DNA from: Hyphococcus sp.
Lineage (GTDB): Bacteria; Pseudomonadota; Alphaproteobacteria; Caulobacterales; Parvularculaceae
Reading direction: 5' to 3'
Length of the DNA: 64,000 nt
Assembly: GCA_028284345.1 (NCBI GenBank)
Contig: JANQRY010000008.1
Coordinates: 434,001 to 498,000, forward strand
The notes under the pieces are model-generated. The model did not search any database. It was not told where the DNA came from and was given only the letters and a program-made list of their open reading frames with translations. The translations under genes were made by a program, and so were the position numbers. Positions 28,533 to 33,608 of the stretch are shown one piece after another (position 1 is the stretch's first letter; every line of letters starts with the position of its first letter).

Positions 28533-29246
28533 TCAAGTCACATTGCGGTCAGCGGCGTCTGCGCGTCGGCGAAAAATGAGATACGCCGCAGCGCGCCCTT
28601 CCCGCGTCGCCTTGGCCTCGTATCGGGTTTCCGGCCAGTCGGCAGGCCGCGTTTTCCAGTCGGCGGCGCGTTCTGCGGTCCAGTCGAAGGCCGGCGCATT
28701 GCGGGCGTGCATCAGCGTCCACCGAATGTAATCGGGAATATCCGACGCCACGCGCAATTCGCCGCCGGGCGCCAGGAGCCGTCCCGCCTCGGCGAAGAAC
28801 CAGGGTGAGATCATGCGTCGTTTGTGATGACGCTTTTTCGGCCACGGGTCCGGATGCAGGACGAACAGCTTTGTCAGCGACCCGTCGGGCAGCGCCTCTA
28901 GCAGCGGGCGCGCATCGCCGAAATGGATGCGAATGTTCTGAAGTCCGGTTTCGTCGATCTTCGACAGGAGTTTTGCAACGCCGTTGACGAAGGGTTCGGC
29001 GCCGATAAAGCCCACCGACGGGTTTTCCTGCGCCTGCCAGGCGAGATGTTCGCCGCCGCCAAAGCCGACCTCGAACCAGATTTCGTTCGCATCGGGAAAG
29101 AGCGCCGCGGGATCGACAGGCCCGGTCTCCGGGTCCGGCGCCGCGACCCTGGGCAACAAATCCGACATCAGCCGCGCCGGCCGCGCGCGCAAGGGTTTGT
29201 CGAGCCGGCGACCGTAAAGGTTGGGAATGTAACCGCGTTCCGTCAT
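28533..29246 (-). CDS. trmB: tRNA (guanine(46)-N7)-methyltransferase
   Basis: TrmB methylates G46 in the variable loop of tRNAs using S-adenosylmethionine. The 237-residue protein has the SAM motif EVGFGGGEHLAWQAQ, NIRIHFGDARPLL, the family motif VLHPDPWPKKRHHKRRMISP and, near the C-terminus, a Thr/Arg-rich end (ETRYEAKATREGRAAAYLIF). It starts MTERGYIPNLYGRRLDKPLR. In related genomes it lies next to metK; here the TTL-fusion gene and a lipoprotein gene sit between. Confidence 0.95.
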   Translation of the reverse strand: MTERGYIPNLYGRRLDKPLRARPARLMSDLLPRVAAPDPETGPVDPAALFPDANEIWFEVGFGGGEHLAWQAQENPSVGFIGAEPFVNGVAKLLSKIDETGLQNIRIHFGDARPLLEALPDGSLTKLFVLHPDPWPKKRHHKRRMISPWFFAEAGRLLAPGGELRVASDIPDYIRWTLMHARNAPAFDWTAERAADWKTRPADWPETRYEAKATREGRAAAYLIFRRRADAADRNVT

Positions 29247-29348
29247 CTTGCCCGATCTATAGCGCCCGCGTTCACGATTGTCTCATCGCGCTTGCGTTTG
29301 CCGCCGCCGCGGCGCCAAGCTGGCGGGCCGGCAGCGAACGCGAAAGAC

Positions 29349-31691
29349 ATGACAAGACGACGATACTGGACAGGAACAAAGCGCGCGCCGGCGCAGGACC
29401 GGTTTTTTATCGACGCTCTCGATCCGAATTTATGGACGCGGGGCGACGAGACCGACTGGGACGCCTGCTGGCAGACGGGCATGCCGGCGCGCGGCGTTTT
29501 CAGGACGATGAAGCCCGGCCAGTGGATCAACCACATTCCGGGCAGCCACGCGCTGACGGTAAAATCGCGCCTTTACCAGACCCTCGACGGGGCGCGGCGT
29601 CGCGCGCCGGCGGCGCTTCAGGAGCGATATCGGTTCTTTCCCGAAAACTATCTGATGCCGGGCGACTACCACGCGCTGCAGCGCGAGGCGTTTGAGCGCC
29701 CGGAAAAGCGCTGGATCGTCAAGCCGAAAAGCCTGTCGCGCGGGCGCGGCATCGAAGTCATCGCCGACGCTGGCGCGGCGCCGGTCGATGAGAAAATGCT
29801 GGTGCAGGAATATCTCGCCGCGCCGCATCTCTTTAACGGGCGGAAATATGTCCTGCGCTGCTATCTCGTCATCACATCCGTCGAACCGCTGCGCGTTTAT
29901 CTGTATAAAGAAGGGTTTGTAAAACTTGCATCGGAAGCCTATCGCGACGGCGACTTCGATAATCTTTATGCGCATCTTACGAACCCCGACGTCAATGCGC
30001 TGAACGACGCCGTTGACGCGGCGGTCGAGTTTCACAGTTTCGCCGACTACCGGCGATGGCTTGCGGAAAACGGCGCCGACCCGGAACCGGTTTTCGCCGC
30101 GCTGCGCGAGATGGCCGTCATCACCGCCATCGCCGCGCGAGAGACCATGCGCGCGCGTCTCGCCAAAAGCGGCGCCTGGGCGCCGGGCTGCTGCGAACTG
30201 ATCGGCATGGACTGCATGGTCGACGCAGACCTCAAACCCTGGCTGCTTGAATGCAATCTCAGCCCGTCCCTTGACGTTTGCGCGGCGCCGGATGCCGGCG
30301 GCGCCATGGAAGAGGCGGTCAAGCGCGCGGTGGTCGCCGATCTTGTCGCCATGGCCGGCCTTAACGACGCCGAGCGGGACATCGCCGATCCGGAGGACGT
30401 CGCCGCCGCCATCGCCGCGAGCGAACGGGAGGGCGACCGCGCCGGCGGTTATGAGCGCATCTATCCGGCCGAAGACGCGCGCGCGTTTTTTCCGTTTTTT
30501 CCGGCGCCGCGATATGCGGACATCGCGCTTGGCGATGCGATCAAGCCGGGCGCCGCTGACGACTATCGCTTCTCCGCCAACGCAGCCGGCGAATACGCCT
30601 TTGACGACGACATCGTCCTGCAGGGCGCCGGCGCCGACAGCCTGATGACGCCGCCGACGGCGGGGGCGTATATCTGGCTGCGCGCCGGGGCCGGCGACCC
30701 GCCGCAAGAGATCGCTCACGATCTCGCCGCATTGTCCGGCGCATCGGGCGACGCCGCGCCATCAACGCAGAAGACCGTCTGGGACACGCTGGCCGACTGG
30801 GGCGCGGCAGGGCTGTTGCTGCCCGCCGGTGAACGGCCCGCGACAGAAAAAGACGACCGGCACCCGCCGCCGGCGCAACCCGTCTGGGCGGGGGAGCAAG
30901 CGGTTCGGTTTGCGGACCGCGGCTATCGCATCCGCTTTGCGGCGCCGGAGATTGCGCCCCGGATCGATCCAATCGTCGCGCCGCTCCGCGCCGCCACAGA
31001 TGCGAAAGACGCGACGGAAATTTCAGTGCTGCGCGGGCGGGCGGGCTACGCCATCACGGTCGGGTCGCGCCTTGCGCGCGCCGGTCTCCGGCTGGCGGAA
31101 GTCGCCCCGGCGCTTTGCGACATCCTTAAGCGCGAGCCGTCGGAAACGGGCGATGACGCGCCGTTGCTGGCCGCAAGCCTGTGGCGCATGGGTGCGCGAA
31201 CGGCCCTCGTCGCGTCATCGGCGCGCACGGGCTGGGACAGTCTCGGGGCCGCGCTCTGCGCCGCCGGCGAGGGAGCGCTGATCGCCGGCGCCTGCCGGCT
31301 CGGCGACGCGCCCGGGGGCGCGATCCCCCTTCCGCTGCCGGCAAGGCTCAGGATCGACGACGCGGACCGTGCGCCGGCCTTCATCAGCCAGTGGCGAAAC
31401 GAAACGCGCGGCGCCCTACTGCCGCTGACGGCGGCGCCGGACGGGGAATGCTCCGTAGACGTTGCAATTCTGCCGACATTCCAGGCTTCTCTGGATGAGA
31501 CGACGACGAGCCGCCTGTCGGGACGGCGCGCCTTTCTCGCACTGGCGCAAATGGTCGATGACGCGGAGCTTTCCGCAACGGCGGCGGCGCGCCTCGCGCA
31601 ATGGGCGGACGCCGTTCCCTGCTTCGCGATTCAATTCGGCGACCGACAATCCGGCGCGCGGGCGCTCGCCGCAGCAACGGCGCCGCAATAG
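29349..31691 (+). CDS. TTL-type ATP-grasp ligase fused to PqqD-like and degenerate HprK-like domains
   Basis: A 780-residue protein from ATG 29349. Residues 95-340 are a complete tubulin-tyrosine-ligase domain: WIVKPKSLSRGRGIEVI (122-138), VQEYLAAPHLFNGRKYVLRC (152-171), YAHLTN (207-212), and CCELIGMDCMVDADLKPWLL ending LECNLSPSL (281-308). These include the ATP and metal ligands of ATP-grasp ligases, so it should ligate an amino acid or acid to a carboxylate. Residues 405-495 look like PqqD (GAYIWLRAG, EIAHDLAALSG, VWDTLADWGAAGLL), the fold of RiPP recognition elements. Residues 515-780 resemble HprK-related kinases, but the P-loop reads ASSARTGWDSLGAAL instead of GxxGxGKST, so kinase activity is unlikely. 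The substrate is unknown. It diverges from trmB and converges on the acidic lipoprotein. Confidence 0.78.
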   Translation: MTRRRYWTGTKRAPAQDRFFIDALDPNLWTRGDETDWDACWQTGMPARGVFRTMKPGQWINHIPGSHALTVKSRLYQTLDGARRRAPAALQERYRFFPENYLMPGDYHALQREAFERPEKRWIVKPKSLSRGRGIEVIADAGAAPVDEKMLVQEYLAAPHLFNGRKYVLRCYLVITSVEPLRVYLYKEGFVKLASEAYRDGDFDNLYAHLTNPDVNALNDAVDAAVEFHSFADYRRWLAENGADPEPVFAALREMAVITAIAARETMRARLAKSGAWAPGCCELIGMDCMVDADLKPWLLECNLSPSLDVCAAPDAGGAMEEAVKRAVVADLVAMAGLNDAERDIADPEDVAAAIAASEREGDRAGGYERIYPAEDARAFFPFFPAPRYADIALGDAIKPGAADDYRFSANAAGEYAFDDDIVLQGAGADSLMTPPTAGAYIWLRAGAGDPPQEIAHDLAALSGASGDAAPSTQKTVWDTLADWGAAGLLLPAGERPATEKDDRHPPPAQPVWAGEQAVRFADRGYRIRFAAPEIAPRIDPIVAPLRAATDAKDATEISVLRGRAGYAITVGSRLARAGLRLAEVAPALCDILKREPSETGDDAPLLAASLWRMGARTALVASSARTGWDSLGAALCAAGEGALIAGACRLGDAPGGAIPLPLPARLRIDDADRAPAFISQWRNETRGALLPLTAAPDGECSVDVAILPTFQASLDETTTSRLSGRRAFLALAQMVDDAELSATAAARLAQWADAVPCFAIQFGDRQSGARALAAATAPQ

Positions 31692-31695
31692 ACAA

Positions 31696-31728
31696 AGAAA
31701 AACGGCGCTCCCGCAGAAGCGCCGTTTG
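31696..31728. terminator. Bidirectional terminator between TTL fusion and acidic lipoprotein
   Basis: AAACGGCGCT and AGCGCCGTTT pair around a short loop, just after the TTL-fusion stop. On the minus strand the stem is followed by TTTCTTTGTC, a good terminator for the lipoprotein gene; on the plus strand only TTTGAT follows. It serves the two convergent genes. Confidence 0.8.
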
Positions 31729-31755
31729 ATAATCGATAATGGTCGACGCCGACGA

Positions 31756-32121
31756 TCAGGTTTCGTCTTCTACCGCTTCTTCGGCGTCCTCGACGGCTTC
31801 TTCCACCGCCTCTTCAACGTCGTCGTAAGCCCCTTCCGCGGCCTCCGCAGCGTCTCCCACCGCTTCTGACGCCTCGTCGTAAGCGCCTTCTGCAGCTTCG
31901 GCGGCGTCGTCAGCGGCTTCGGCGGCCTCTTCAGCCGCTTCGGCGACGCCGTCAGCGGCCTCTTCAGCTGCTTCCTCAACTTCTTCGGCGACGGTTTCGG
32001 CCTCGCCTTCATTGTCAGCCTGCGAGCAACCGGCCAGCAACAGCGCCGCCGGCGCGCCGGCGATCAGCGCACGGCTTAACCGCGCAAGCATTTTTTCACG
32101 GTCGTTTTTCAAATTCGTCAT
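31756..32121 (-). CDS. Small Glu/Asp/Ala-rich lipoprotein with 18-residue repeats
   Basis: A 121-residue protein. The signal peptide has lipobox LLAGC (Cys32). Nearly every residue after about 40 is Glu, Asp, Ala or Val, predicting one long, very acidic helix. An 18-residue unit is repeated in tandem: DDAAEAAEGAYDEASEAVG (from about 71) and DAAEAAEGAYDDVEEAV (from 90). The family is not recognised; acidic Ala-rich lipoproteins of this sort occur in alphaproteobacteria. Low complexity makes homology searches unreliable. It converges on the TTL-fusion gene, and its Glu-rich chain resembles the kind of acidic tail that TTL-like glutamylases modify, but that link is only a guess. Confidence 0.7.
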   Translation of the reverse strand: MTNLKNDREKMLARLSRALIAGAPAALLLAGCSQADNEGEAETVAEEVEEAAEEAADGVAEAAEEAAEAADDAAEAAEGAYDEASEAVGDAAEAAEGAYDDVEEAVEEAVEDAEEAVEDET

Positions 32122-32230
32122 AAAGTCTGCCCCGTTTTGATTAGCGGACGCCCTGATCTAAGGGACGCCTTGGCGCATCCGGAATACCCCGCCGCACGGA
32201 CTGCAGCGGGCGCCGGCCACGTCGCGTCCT

Positions 32231-32260
32231 ATCATATTGTAAACGGGAAGATAACGGCAA
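32231..32260 (-). promoter_or_regulatory. Probable sigma-70-type promoter of the acidic lipoprotein gene
   Basis: On the minus strand TTGCCG (32255-32260) and TATGAT (32231-32236) are 18 bases apart, in a locally AT-richer stretch about 105 bases upstream of the lipoprotein ATG. A GTGA-TCAC dyad (around 32273-32288) lies upstream of the -35. Confidence 0.45.
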
Positions 32261-32353
32261 TTTCCGCCTTGTGACGTTTTTTTCACGTCTGTCGCCTGCG
32301 ATCGCCACCCCTACCGCCCTGAAATTCGTGACATTTTGCCGCAATCGGGCCGT

Positions 32354-33571
32354 TCAGACGGCTGATTTCAAGGCTTCCACGAGATCGGTGCGCTCCCAGG
32401 AGAAGCCGCCCTCATTGTCCGGCTCGCGGCCGAAATGGCCGTAAGCGGCGGTGCGGGCATAAACCGGACGATTGAGATCGAGGGCCCGGCGAATGCCTGA
32501 GGGCGAAAGATCCATGGCCTCGCGGACCGCGCGTTCCAGCGCCGTCTCGTCGACCGCGCCGGTGCCGTGGGCGTCCACATAGACGGAGAGGGGCTGGGCG
32601 ACGCCGATGGCGTAGGAAAGCTGGATCGTGCAGCGCTCGGCGAGTTCGGCCGCAACAACATTCTTGGCGAGATAGCGCGCCGCATAGGCGGCCGAGCGGT
32701 CGACCTTGGTCGTGTCCTTGCCGGAAAAGGCGCCGCCGCCGTGAGGCGCGGCGCCGCCATAAGTGTCGACAATGATCTTGCGGCCGGTGAGGCCGGCGTC
32801 GCCGTCGGGCCCGCCGATCACGAACTTGCCGGTCGGATTAACGTGCCAGGCGCAGTCTCTGGCGATCTCGATTTCTTTGAGGGCGCCGCGAATATAAGGC
32901 TCGACCACCTCGCGGACTTTCGCCGAATCCCAAGTCTCGTCGAGATGCTGGGTCGACAGGACGATCGACGTCACCTCCGCCGGGCGGCCGTCCGAATATT
33001 GCACCGTGACCTGGCTCTTTGCGTCCGGCCCGAGCCGGCCGGCCTCGCCGTCCCCGGCGTGACGGGCCGCGGCGAGGTCCTTCAAAATGCGGTGGCTGTA
33101 ATAGATCGGCGCCGGCATCAGCGCTTCGGTTTCGCGGCAGGCGTAACCGAACATAATGCCCTGGTCGCCGGCGCCTTCGGCGTTGGCGTCGGCGGCGTTG
33201 TCGACCCCTTGGGCAATGTCCGCAGACTGACCATGCAACAGGACGTCGACCTCGGCCGTTTCCCAGTGAAAGCCGTCCTGCTCGTAGCCGATGTCGCGAA
33301 TGGCGTCCCGGGCGGCTTTTTCAAACGGCCCGGGCTCAACGCCGCCATTGGCCATCAGGGCCTCGGGCGCGCGAACCTCGCCGGCGATGACGACCCGGTT
33401 GGTCGTCGTCAGGGTTTCGCAGGCGACGCGCACGTCCCACGGGCTCATGCCCGCCGTCTCCGCCTCGCGATAAATAAGGTCGACGATTTCGTCGGAAATC
33501 CGGTCGCAGACCTTGTCCGGGTGTCCCTCGGACACGCTTTCGCTGGTGAATTGATAGGACTGACGCGCCAT
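32354..33571 (-). CDS. metK: S-adenosylmethionine synthetase
   Basis: MetK makes S-adenosylmethionine from methionine and ATP. It starts [20 protein letters not shown] with the ATP-binding His, and contains [12 protein letters not shown] and [19 protein letters not shown], the family signatures. The length is 405 residues. ATG 33571 is chosen; the ATG at 33589 lies inside the palindrome upstream and has no ribosome-binding site. It is preceded by a promoter and a perfect 8-bp-arm inverted repeat, so it is likely regulated. Position after phrR and lnt is the class-typical order. SAM-using TrmB, MiaB and the methyltransferase at 61.7 kb depend on its product. Confidence 0.97.
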
Positions 33572-33586
33572 GGAGATCCGGCCTTT

Positions 33587-33608
33587 CATATAAAGATAAG
33601 TTTATATG
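33587..33608. promoter_or_regulatory. Palindromic operator at the metK transcription start
   Basis: CATATAAA-GATAAG-TTTATATG: 8-bp perfect arms around 6 bases, 15 bases upstream of the metK ATG. It begins about where the promoter at 33614-33642 would start transcription, so a bound dimer would block initiation. AT-rich palindromes of this type upstream of metK are known as sites of ArsR-family SahR/SamR regulators in proteobacteria; that assignment is from memory and not proven here. Confidence 0.65.

Follow-up and report, generated by a model that had tools for sequence, protein, structure and literature searches.

The 64,000-nucleotide stretch of Hyphococcus sp. DNA analyzed here, referred to below as the window (GenBank assembly GCA_028284345.1, contig JANQRY010000008.1, positions 434,001 to 498,000), carries a gene for a 780-residue protein in which a tubulin-tyrosine-ligase (TTL)-family ligase, a PqqD-like domain and an HprK-like domain follow one another. 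Downstream, on the opposite strand, is a gene for a small acidic protein with a signal-peptide-like leader, which we regard as the candidate substrate of the ligase. The PqqD-like part is of the kind known as a recognition element (RRE) for ribosomally synthesized and post-translationally modified peptides (RiPPs). The features of the locus, in window coordinates, are as follows.

29349..31691, plus strand: three-domain ligase (TTL / PqqD-RRE / HprK-like), an open reading frame of 780 residues
29349..30383, plus strand: TTL-family ATP-grasp ligase domain, residues 1-345 (PF03133; nearest solved chains TTLL6, TTLL7 and TTLL11)
29739..29741, plus strand: Arg131, aligned with TTLL6 Q180, a chain-initiation determinant (alignment to TTLL6 chains)
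30258..30260, plus strand: Leu304, aligned with TTLL6 H362 (alignment to TTLL6 chains)
30561..30839, plus strand: predicted PqqD-type RiPP recognition element, residues ~405-497 (PF05402, TbiB1/TfuB1, hhalign)
30891..31688, plus strand: HprK_rel_A-like C-terminal domain, residues 515-780 (hhalign)
31215..31241, plus strand: degenerate P-loop site, SSARTGWDS, against GNPGAGKTT in a homologue that keeps the motif (alignment)
31756..32121, minus strand: candidate substrate, a 121-residue acidic lipoprotein-like protein (open reading frame; leader profile match)
32029..32121, minus strand: signal-peptide-like leader, MTNLKNDREKMLARLSRALIAGAPAALLLAG (alignment A4)
32026..32037, minus strand: lipobox-like LAGC (read from the sequence)
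31759..32025, minus strand: Glu-rich tail, the presumed acceptor region (sequence)

An initial annotation of the window had proposed that this one protein unites a TTL-type ligase, a PqqD-like stretch and, at residues 515-780, an HprK-related stretch. By sequence profiles of all three parts, it is such a fusion. A hidden Markov model search with the window protein alone recovers the TTL domain but not the other two, which are visible only through the family. For this purpose the best 80 of 110 relatives of the enzyme were kept as related loci, most of them with open frames of ~770-870 residues, and the window protein was aligned with those from 49 of these loci (alignment A3, 50 members). The genera represented include Halomonas, Marinobacter, Aquisalimonas, Marinicaulis and Robiginitomaculum, which we take to be marine or halophilic. 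A second copy of the enzyme, 39% identical over residues 4-724, is found elsewhere in the source genome, and this paralogue also has a leader-type partner.

The Pfam TTL family (PF03133) matches the window protein at 2.2e-53 over residues 56-313, with the TTL motifs at the positions first annotated, and is present in 50/50 members of A3. D288, E301 and N303, which we take to be the catalytic ATP-grasp residues, are invariant. Against solved chains, the family profile scores 229 bits with TTLL6, 71 with 5vlq_A (presumably the glycylase TTLL3) and 64 with TTL, and the top six solved sequences are glutamylases only (TTLL6, TTLL7, TTLL11). Glutamate is, by this similarity, most likely the donor amino acid. 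Two sites align with Q180 and H362 of TTLL6. At position 131, 35 of the 50 members have Arg and 15 have Lys; at position 304, all have Leu. One solved TTLL6 sequence (three entries), presumably an engineered initiating variant, carries Ala-Arg and Ile here in place of the Cys-Gln and His of the others. As reviewed in PMC7970040, Q180 and H362 set TTLL6 for elongation instead of initiation, and Arg in place of Q180 favours gamma-linked glutamylation; the report on TTLL11 (PMC12366701) names Q180 as the primary determinant of TTLL6 selectivity. Given the initiation-type residues at positions 131 and 304, the bacterial enzyme looks like a starter of branches on internal glutamates.

For the middle of the protein, the window sequence alone gave no Pfam PqqD match, nor a match to any NCBIfam family at E<=10. 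In A3, 44 of the 50 members are hit by Pfam PqqD at E<=0.1, the best at 7.5e-10. Among solved proteins, the family profile picks up TbiB1 (1.8e-4, profile positions 417-497) and TfuB1 (3.3e-3, profile positions 408-476), and the solved relatives nearest to this part are the lasso B1 leader-binding proteins. Profile-profile alignment (hhalign) gives 97.6% between it and the PqqD part of stand-alone PqqD-HprK proteins.

At E<=0.1, the HprK families of Pfam and NCBIfam gave no match in A3 (50 members), so profile-profile alignment was used for the C-terminal third. Weak matches of A3 in other genomes led to stand-alone PqqD-HprK proteins of 372-417 residues, seven of which were aligned (A5); one, L122, has its domains in reverse order and was excluded from the profile, leaving six. 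Residues 515-780 align with these six at 97.9% probability (E 5.3e-13, 242 columns), and residues 400-780 at 99.5% over 337 columns. Control values were no higher than 0.1% for eight column shuffles and 0.5% for the TTL domain, which served as the negative control. Because it was a weak resemblance to the family profile that led to these six, the link to HprK comes independently from their match to HprK_rel_A (TIGR04352) in NCBIfam, which ranges from 1.1e-12 to 2.6e-24 and falls below the curated cut-off in all six. Four of the six also have a weak PqqD-family match there.

The initial annotation had drawn a parallel to HprK-related kinases, but the state of the P-loop speaks against an active kinase here. 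None of the 48 members of A3 that cover the aligned site has a Walker A motif, whereas GK[ST] is kept at this position in 7/7 stand-alone relatives. The sole [GA]xxxxGK[ST] among the members is in L027, outside the HprK-like domain; in L019 a GKT immediately precedes the site. This part is most likely an HprK-derived pseudo-kinase, which would not be expected to phosphorylate because the P-loop is lost.

The candidate substrate gene lies 64 bases downstream of the enzyme gene and is convergent with it. A leader profile of 23 rows, the window's own leader included, matches the window leader (G000:C7:466011-466121) at E 1.5e-14, and Pro24 is invariant across the 23 aligned leaders (A4). With a second profile, made from the N-terminal 40 residues of proteins from 51 of the 80 loci, 91 leader proteins were found in 74/80 related loci. 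These share a signal-peptide-like leader with the consensus LLxxLSRxLxYxxP..., ahead of a Glu-Ala-Gly tail. In all 73 loci where the distance could be measured (L084 could not), the nearest leader protein is at most 560 bases from the enzyme frame, with a median of 127. Depending on the lineage, it follows the enzyme in the same orientation, converges with it, diverges from it or lies upstream, so that the pair is kept even as its arrangement changes. Six loci were missed by the profile (L051, L032, L064, L087, L071 and L045). At L051 a similar protein can be seen nearby by eye, and L032, L064 and L087 have leader matches in the genome, outside the stretch fetched; L071 and L045 are considered below.

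Proline occupies its position in 90/91 leaders, and the residue three before it is Tyr in 63, forming YxxP, and Val in 15. Behind this one leader are two kinds of partner: 67 are small proteins consisting mostly of the tail, and 24 carry a CxxCH (cytochrome c) motif, which in 24/24 cases is preceded by a Glu-rich stretch. For the three CxxCH partners that were tested, Pfam SoxA-TsdA_cyt-c scores above its cut-off, with E-values of 4.5e-8 to 8.1e-7. The densest 40 residues of the 91 proteins comprise 39% Glu, 27% Ala, 21% Gly, 3% Lys and 1% Asp, in a pattern that for the most part alternates Glu and Ala or Gly. The pooled tails employ both Glu codons and all four codons each for Ala and Gly, with a median of 11 distinct codons per 40 residues, and this diversity indicates that the tails are not fresh nucleotide repeats. 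Other names that database searches put on the tails (TolA, PARP, serine-rich protein and others) scored below the Pfam and NCBIfam cut-offs and were taken as low-complexity matches. The arrangement as a whole, as far as it can be read from the genes, is of RiPP type, with an encoded precursor comprising a conserved leader and a candidate core, linked to an RRE-bearing enzyme.

The lasso systems provide a precedent for how such a leader might be read. The characterized recognition motif of lasso RREs is YxxP, of which LxxP is listed as a variant (PMC12710340). Of the nine stand-alone PqqD-HprK loci scanned, two (L138 and L139) have a signal-like peptide with YTPP upstream, and the filter found no such peptide at the other seven, hinting that YxxP signal-like leaders may be general to the PqqD-HprK unit. 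Taken together, the YxxP of the leaders, the closeness to lasso B1 proteins and the YTPP at L138 and L139 support the proposed binding of a YxxP-type leader by the PqqD domain. At both L138 and L139 the upstream neighbour of the stand-alone gene is a small protein with a signal-like stretch (KKAGKFAVYTPP).

The association between enzyme and leader was also examined by genome. Among 60 relatives, where all first-look candidates were scored, 13 genomes had both and 47 had neither; 15/15 leader matches lay within 0.6 kb of an enzyme match, one of the enzyme matches being a fragment only. In the G441 family (151 genomes), 24 had both, one had an enzyme fragment only (G465, a 285-residue frame with no leader), one had a leader only and 125 had neither. 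Ten genomes of this family have a further leader match ~7-26 kb from the enzyme, which means that adjacency alone does not explain the leader match. Three full-length fusions were found in a phylum sample of 398 genomes (G000, G194 and G441) and three in a class sample of 350 (G441, G738 and G845), all with leaders; no other genome of the class sample matched. The samples overlap, G441 being in three of them. Weak leader matches in G112 and G356 of the phylum sample (E ~1e-4) were rejected, as the pattern filter found no leader-type Glu-rich frame there. With relatedness ignored, Fisher's test gives p ~2e-13 for the 60 relatives and ~1e-25 for the G441 family. The acidic leader protein is probably the target of the enzyme.

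On the whole of this evidence, we consider it likely, though well short of certain, that the enzyme is a leader-guided TTLL-type protein ligase, which most likely glutamylates the tail glutamates of its partner before export. In the cytoplasm, the PqqD domain would act as an RRE and bind the YxxP-containing, signal-peptide-like leader; the TTL domain would then spend ATP on ligating free amino acids, glutamate most probably, to carboxylate side chains in the Glu-Ala/Gly tail. For the pseudo-HprK domain we envisage a role as a scaffold or an additional docking surface. The partner would then be exported and its leader removed by signal peptidase, or by the lipoprotein signal peptidase in the window's lineage. 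The product would be a protein of strong negative charge, either periplasmic or anchored in the membrane, or else a cytochrome c in which one segment is anionic. The initial annotation had envisaged a single-gene system with an unknown target; leader-guided carboxylate ligation is retained from that proposal, and its single gene and unknown target give way to the candidate substrate gene next to the enzyme.

Several observations weigh against this reading. In the window partner and in L017-L019, the proteins most closely related to it, the tail is dominated by Glu and Ala, contains Asp and has no Glu-Gly repeats, and the YxxP position has no Tyr, so that the analogy to Glu-Gly repeats is weakest for the very locus described here and for L017-L019. 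The YxxP Tyr is missing from 28 of the 91 leaders overall. No partner was found at L071 or at L045, where the contig ends inside the enzyme gene, and G561 has a leader protein with no enzyme detected. Scoring covered part of the first-look candidates in the phylum sample, in the class sample and in the enzyme search of the G441 family, which makes the absences there less firm than those among the 60 relatives. In addition, sequences from these groups were among those used to train the leader profile, which favours sensitivity. For this reason, and because relatedness was ignored, the firm part of the association is that leaders are hardly ever found without the enzyme.

Other readings differ in the chemistry. 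The donor might be an amino acid other than glutamate, such as glycine, added to the tail glutamates: the donors of the TTL family are Tyr, Glu or Gly. We think this unlikely, as the six best solved sequences are glutamylases (TTLL6, 7, 11) and both TTL and 5vlq_A, the presumed TTLL3, score far lower. Less probable still is a graspetide-like chemistry, in which tail Glu carboxylates would be cross-linked to Lys, Ser or Thr within the same protein. ATP-grasp enzymes are reported to form such cross-links in graspetides (PMC8939145), and at least one Lys, Ser or Thr occurs in the densest 40 residues of 40/67 small partners, as well as of L025 and L037 among the cytochrome type. However, none occurs in 27/67 small partners, the count being limited to that stretch, and the ligase belongs to the TTL family, whose members ligate free amino acids; the words 'tubulin' and 'TTL' are absent from the text of the graspetide survey (PMC8939145). 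We give a similarly low weight to extension of the partner's C-terminal main chain, with no side-chain branching and the tail as a scaffold. TTL itself works on a C-terminus. TTLL11 and TTLL6 are reported to extend the tubulin main chain (PMC12366701). Against such an extension, 50/50 members carry Arg or Lys at the Q180 position, the reported determinant of initiation, and in all 24 CxxCH partners the Glu-rich stretch is internal, ahead of the heme motif.

Two further alternatives can be given very little credence. Homology to HprK_rel_A might suggest that the HprK-like domain is an active kinase and that the protein both ligates and phosphorylates, but no P-loop is present in the 48 members (of 50) whose sequence reaches across the site, in contrast to the GK[ST] of the seven stand-alone relatives. 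Nor does it seem credible that the acidic proteins are unrelated neighbours whose low-complexity tails are chance repeats. Minisatellite expansion is able to yield such repeats, yet the leader itself is conserved, leader proteins are also found away from the enzyme, the tails draw on both Glu codons and all Ala and Gly codons (the median of 11 distinct codons per 40 residues given above), and the co-occurrence is strong by Fisher's test at ~2e-13 and ~1e-25, even if those values ignore relatedness.

Leader-guided glutamylation of the tail, which we prefer, has its nearest functional parallel in the action of TTLL5 on RPGR, as far as the analogy goes. TTLL5 is reported to glutamylate the Glu-Gly repeats of RPGR, whose C-terminus is bound by a separate docking domain that is required for the modification (PMC13052805). 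Like the TTLL glutamylases, the bacterial enzyme has a TTL catalytic domain with conserved ATP-grasp residues, Glu-rich tails as the presumed acceptor and a separate docking module. It differs in being bacterial, in docking presumably through PqqD/RRE and pseudo-HprK rather than microtubule-binding or CID modules, and in having a partner that looks exported, not cytoskeletal. The order PqqD then HprK, over 337 aligned columns, is shared with PqqD-HprK proteins of the HPr-rel-A type (TIGR04352, TIGR04353), from which the enzyme is set apart by the TTL ligase fused in front and the lost P-loop; even the stand-alone relatives fall short of the NCBIfam cut-offs.

Among RiPP systems, the lasso leader-binding proteins TbiB1 and TfuB1 resemble the enzyme in their PqqD/RRE family and in the YxxP motif of the leader; unlike lasso systems, the protein has no lasso cyclase or protease domain, and the leader of its partner resembles a signal peptide. 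The precursors of bufferins, which are RiPPs, are reported to carry Sec signal peptides instead of typical leaders (PMC12452194). The likeness extends to the predicted lipoproteins (~16% of Buf2), to the few precursors fused to cytochrome c and to an RRE-type partner (PMC12452194). Bufferins are, however, modified by MNIO enzymes, a different chemistry that yields Cys-derived heterocycles in place of the Glu ligation presumed here. RimK (PMC4431377) and SidJ are, like the proposed enzyme, bacterial proteins that attach glutamate to proteins. RimK belongs to another ATP-grasp family and acts on S6, and SidJ is a pseudokinase effector. We know of no RRE guidance for either.

The enzyme would be classed, from its domains and partner, as an RRE-guided protein-modifying enzyme with a TTLL-type catalyst. 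In the open-licence literature, no description of the fusion or its partner was found in the titles or abstract openings of the matches listed. Each part is of a known kind. What appears to be new is their combination, along with a candidate substrate, linked by its leader, for a TTL-family ligase of bacteria. They provide a concrete, testable substrate family for a bacterial enzyme of the TTL family, and bring together the tubulin code and RiPP biosynthesis. A broader reading, on which we are evenly divided, is that of a bacterial counterpart to the tail code of tubulin and RPGR, in which an initiating glutamylase of TTLL type, steered to a signal peptide by a lasso-type RRE, would (poly)glutamylate encoded Glu-Ala/Gly tails and so make exported anionic brushes on small proteins, lipoproteins and c-type cytochromes of marine and halophilic proteobacteria. 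Our equally balanced judgement of that reading takes in its possible evolutionary origin, in which a TTL ligase was fused to a PqqD-HprK unit and the kinase of that unit subsequently became inactive. As roles of the product, a surface layer of negative charge, the buffering of metals or the electrostatic steering of cytochromes would fit, because the related genera include ones that we take to be marine or halophilic. The findings suggest that leader-guided chemistry may install repeated modifications on the side chains of exported proteins and cytochromes. They also offer a way into two questions, namely what is recognised by PqqD-HprK units and whether Glu-rich repeats came to be glutamylated more than once.

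A few loci depart from the usual gene structure. In one lineage (L014/L015 and L041), the enzyme is read as two overlapping frames of ~144 and 691 residues, and the overlap suggests that the gene may be broken or misassembled. At L016 (genome G010), a leader protein lies beside a 50-residue enzyme fragment, and a full enzyme with a cytochrome-type partner is found elsewhere in the genome. Genome G775 (L137 and L139) encodes a separate TTL-like protein of ~370 residues and a separate PqqD-HprK protein on another contig, with no leader-profile match in the genome; this is possibly a split or ancestral state.

Among the neighbouring genes, no lasso cyclase or protease was found in the eight annotated representatives of the recurrent neighbour families, the other neighbours not being annotated; the same eight included no MNIO, for which no aimed search was made. 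Within 28533-33589 of the window, the genes near the enzyme include what are presumably metK-like and trmB-like genes, likewise present in nine and seven related loci, respectively. What we take to be a DoxX-like gene recurs in seven of the 82 clustered loci (L129:5749-6758 region). DoxX genes are also reported from bufferin clusters (PMC12452194). A DUF302-like gene, scoring below the Pfam cut-off, occurs in 12 of the 82 loci (again the L129:5749-6758 region), and a rhodanese-domain gene (L066:2460-3419 and counterparts) in 25, divergent and upstream of the enzyme in 21 of them. The DinB-family gene (tested representative L083:7874-8494) is present in 37 of the 82 and lies downstream of the enzyme on the same strand in 35, and could belong to the operon as well. 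Finally, the interval between the convergent enzyme and partner genes of the window (31692-31755) contains, by eye, a GC-rich inverted repeat followed by T runs, which looks like a shared terminator.

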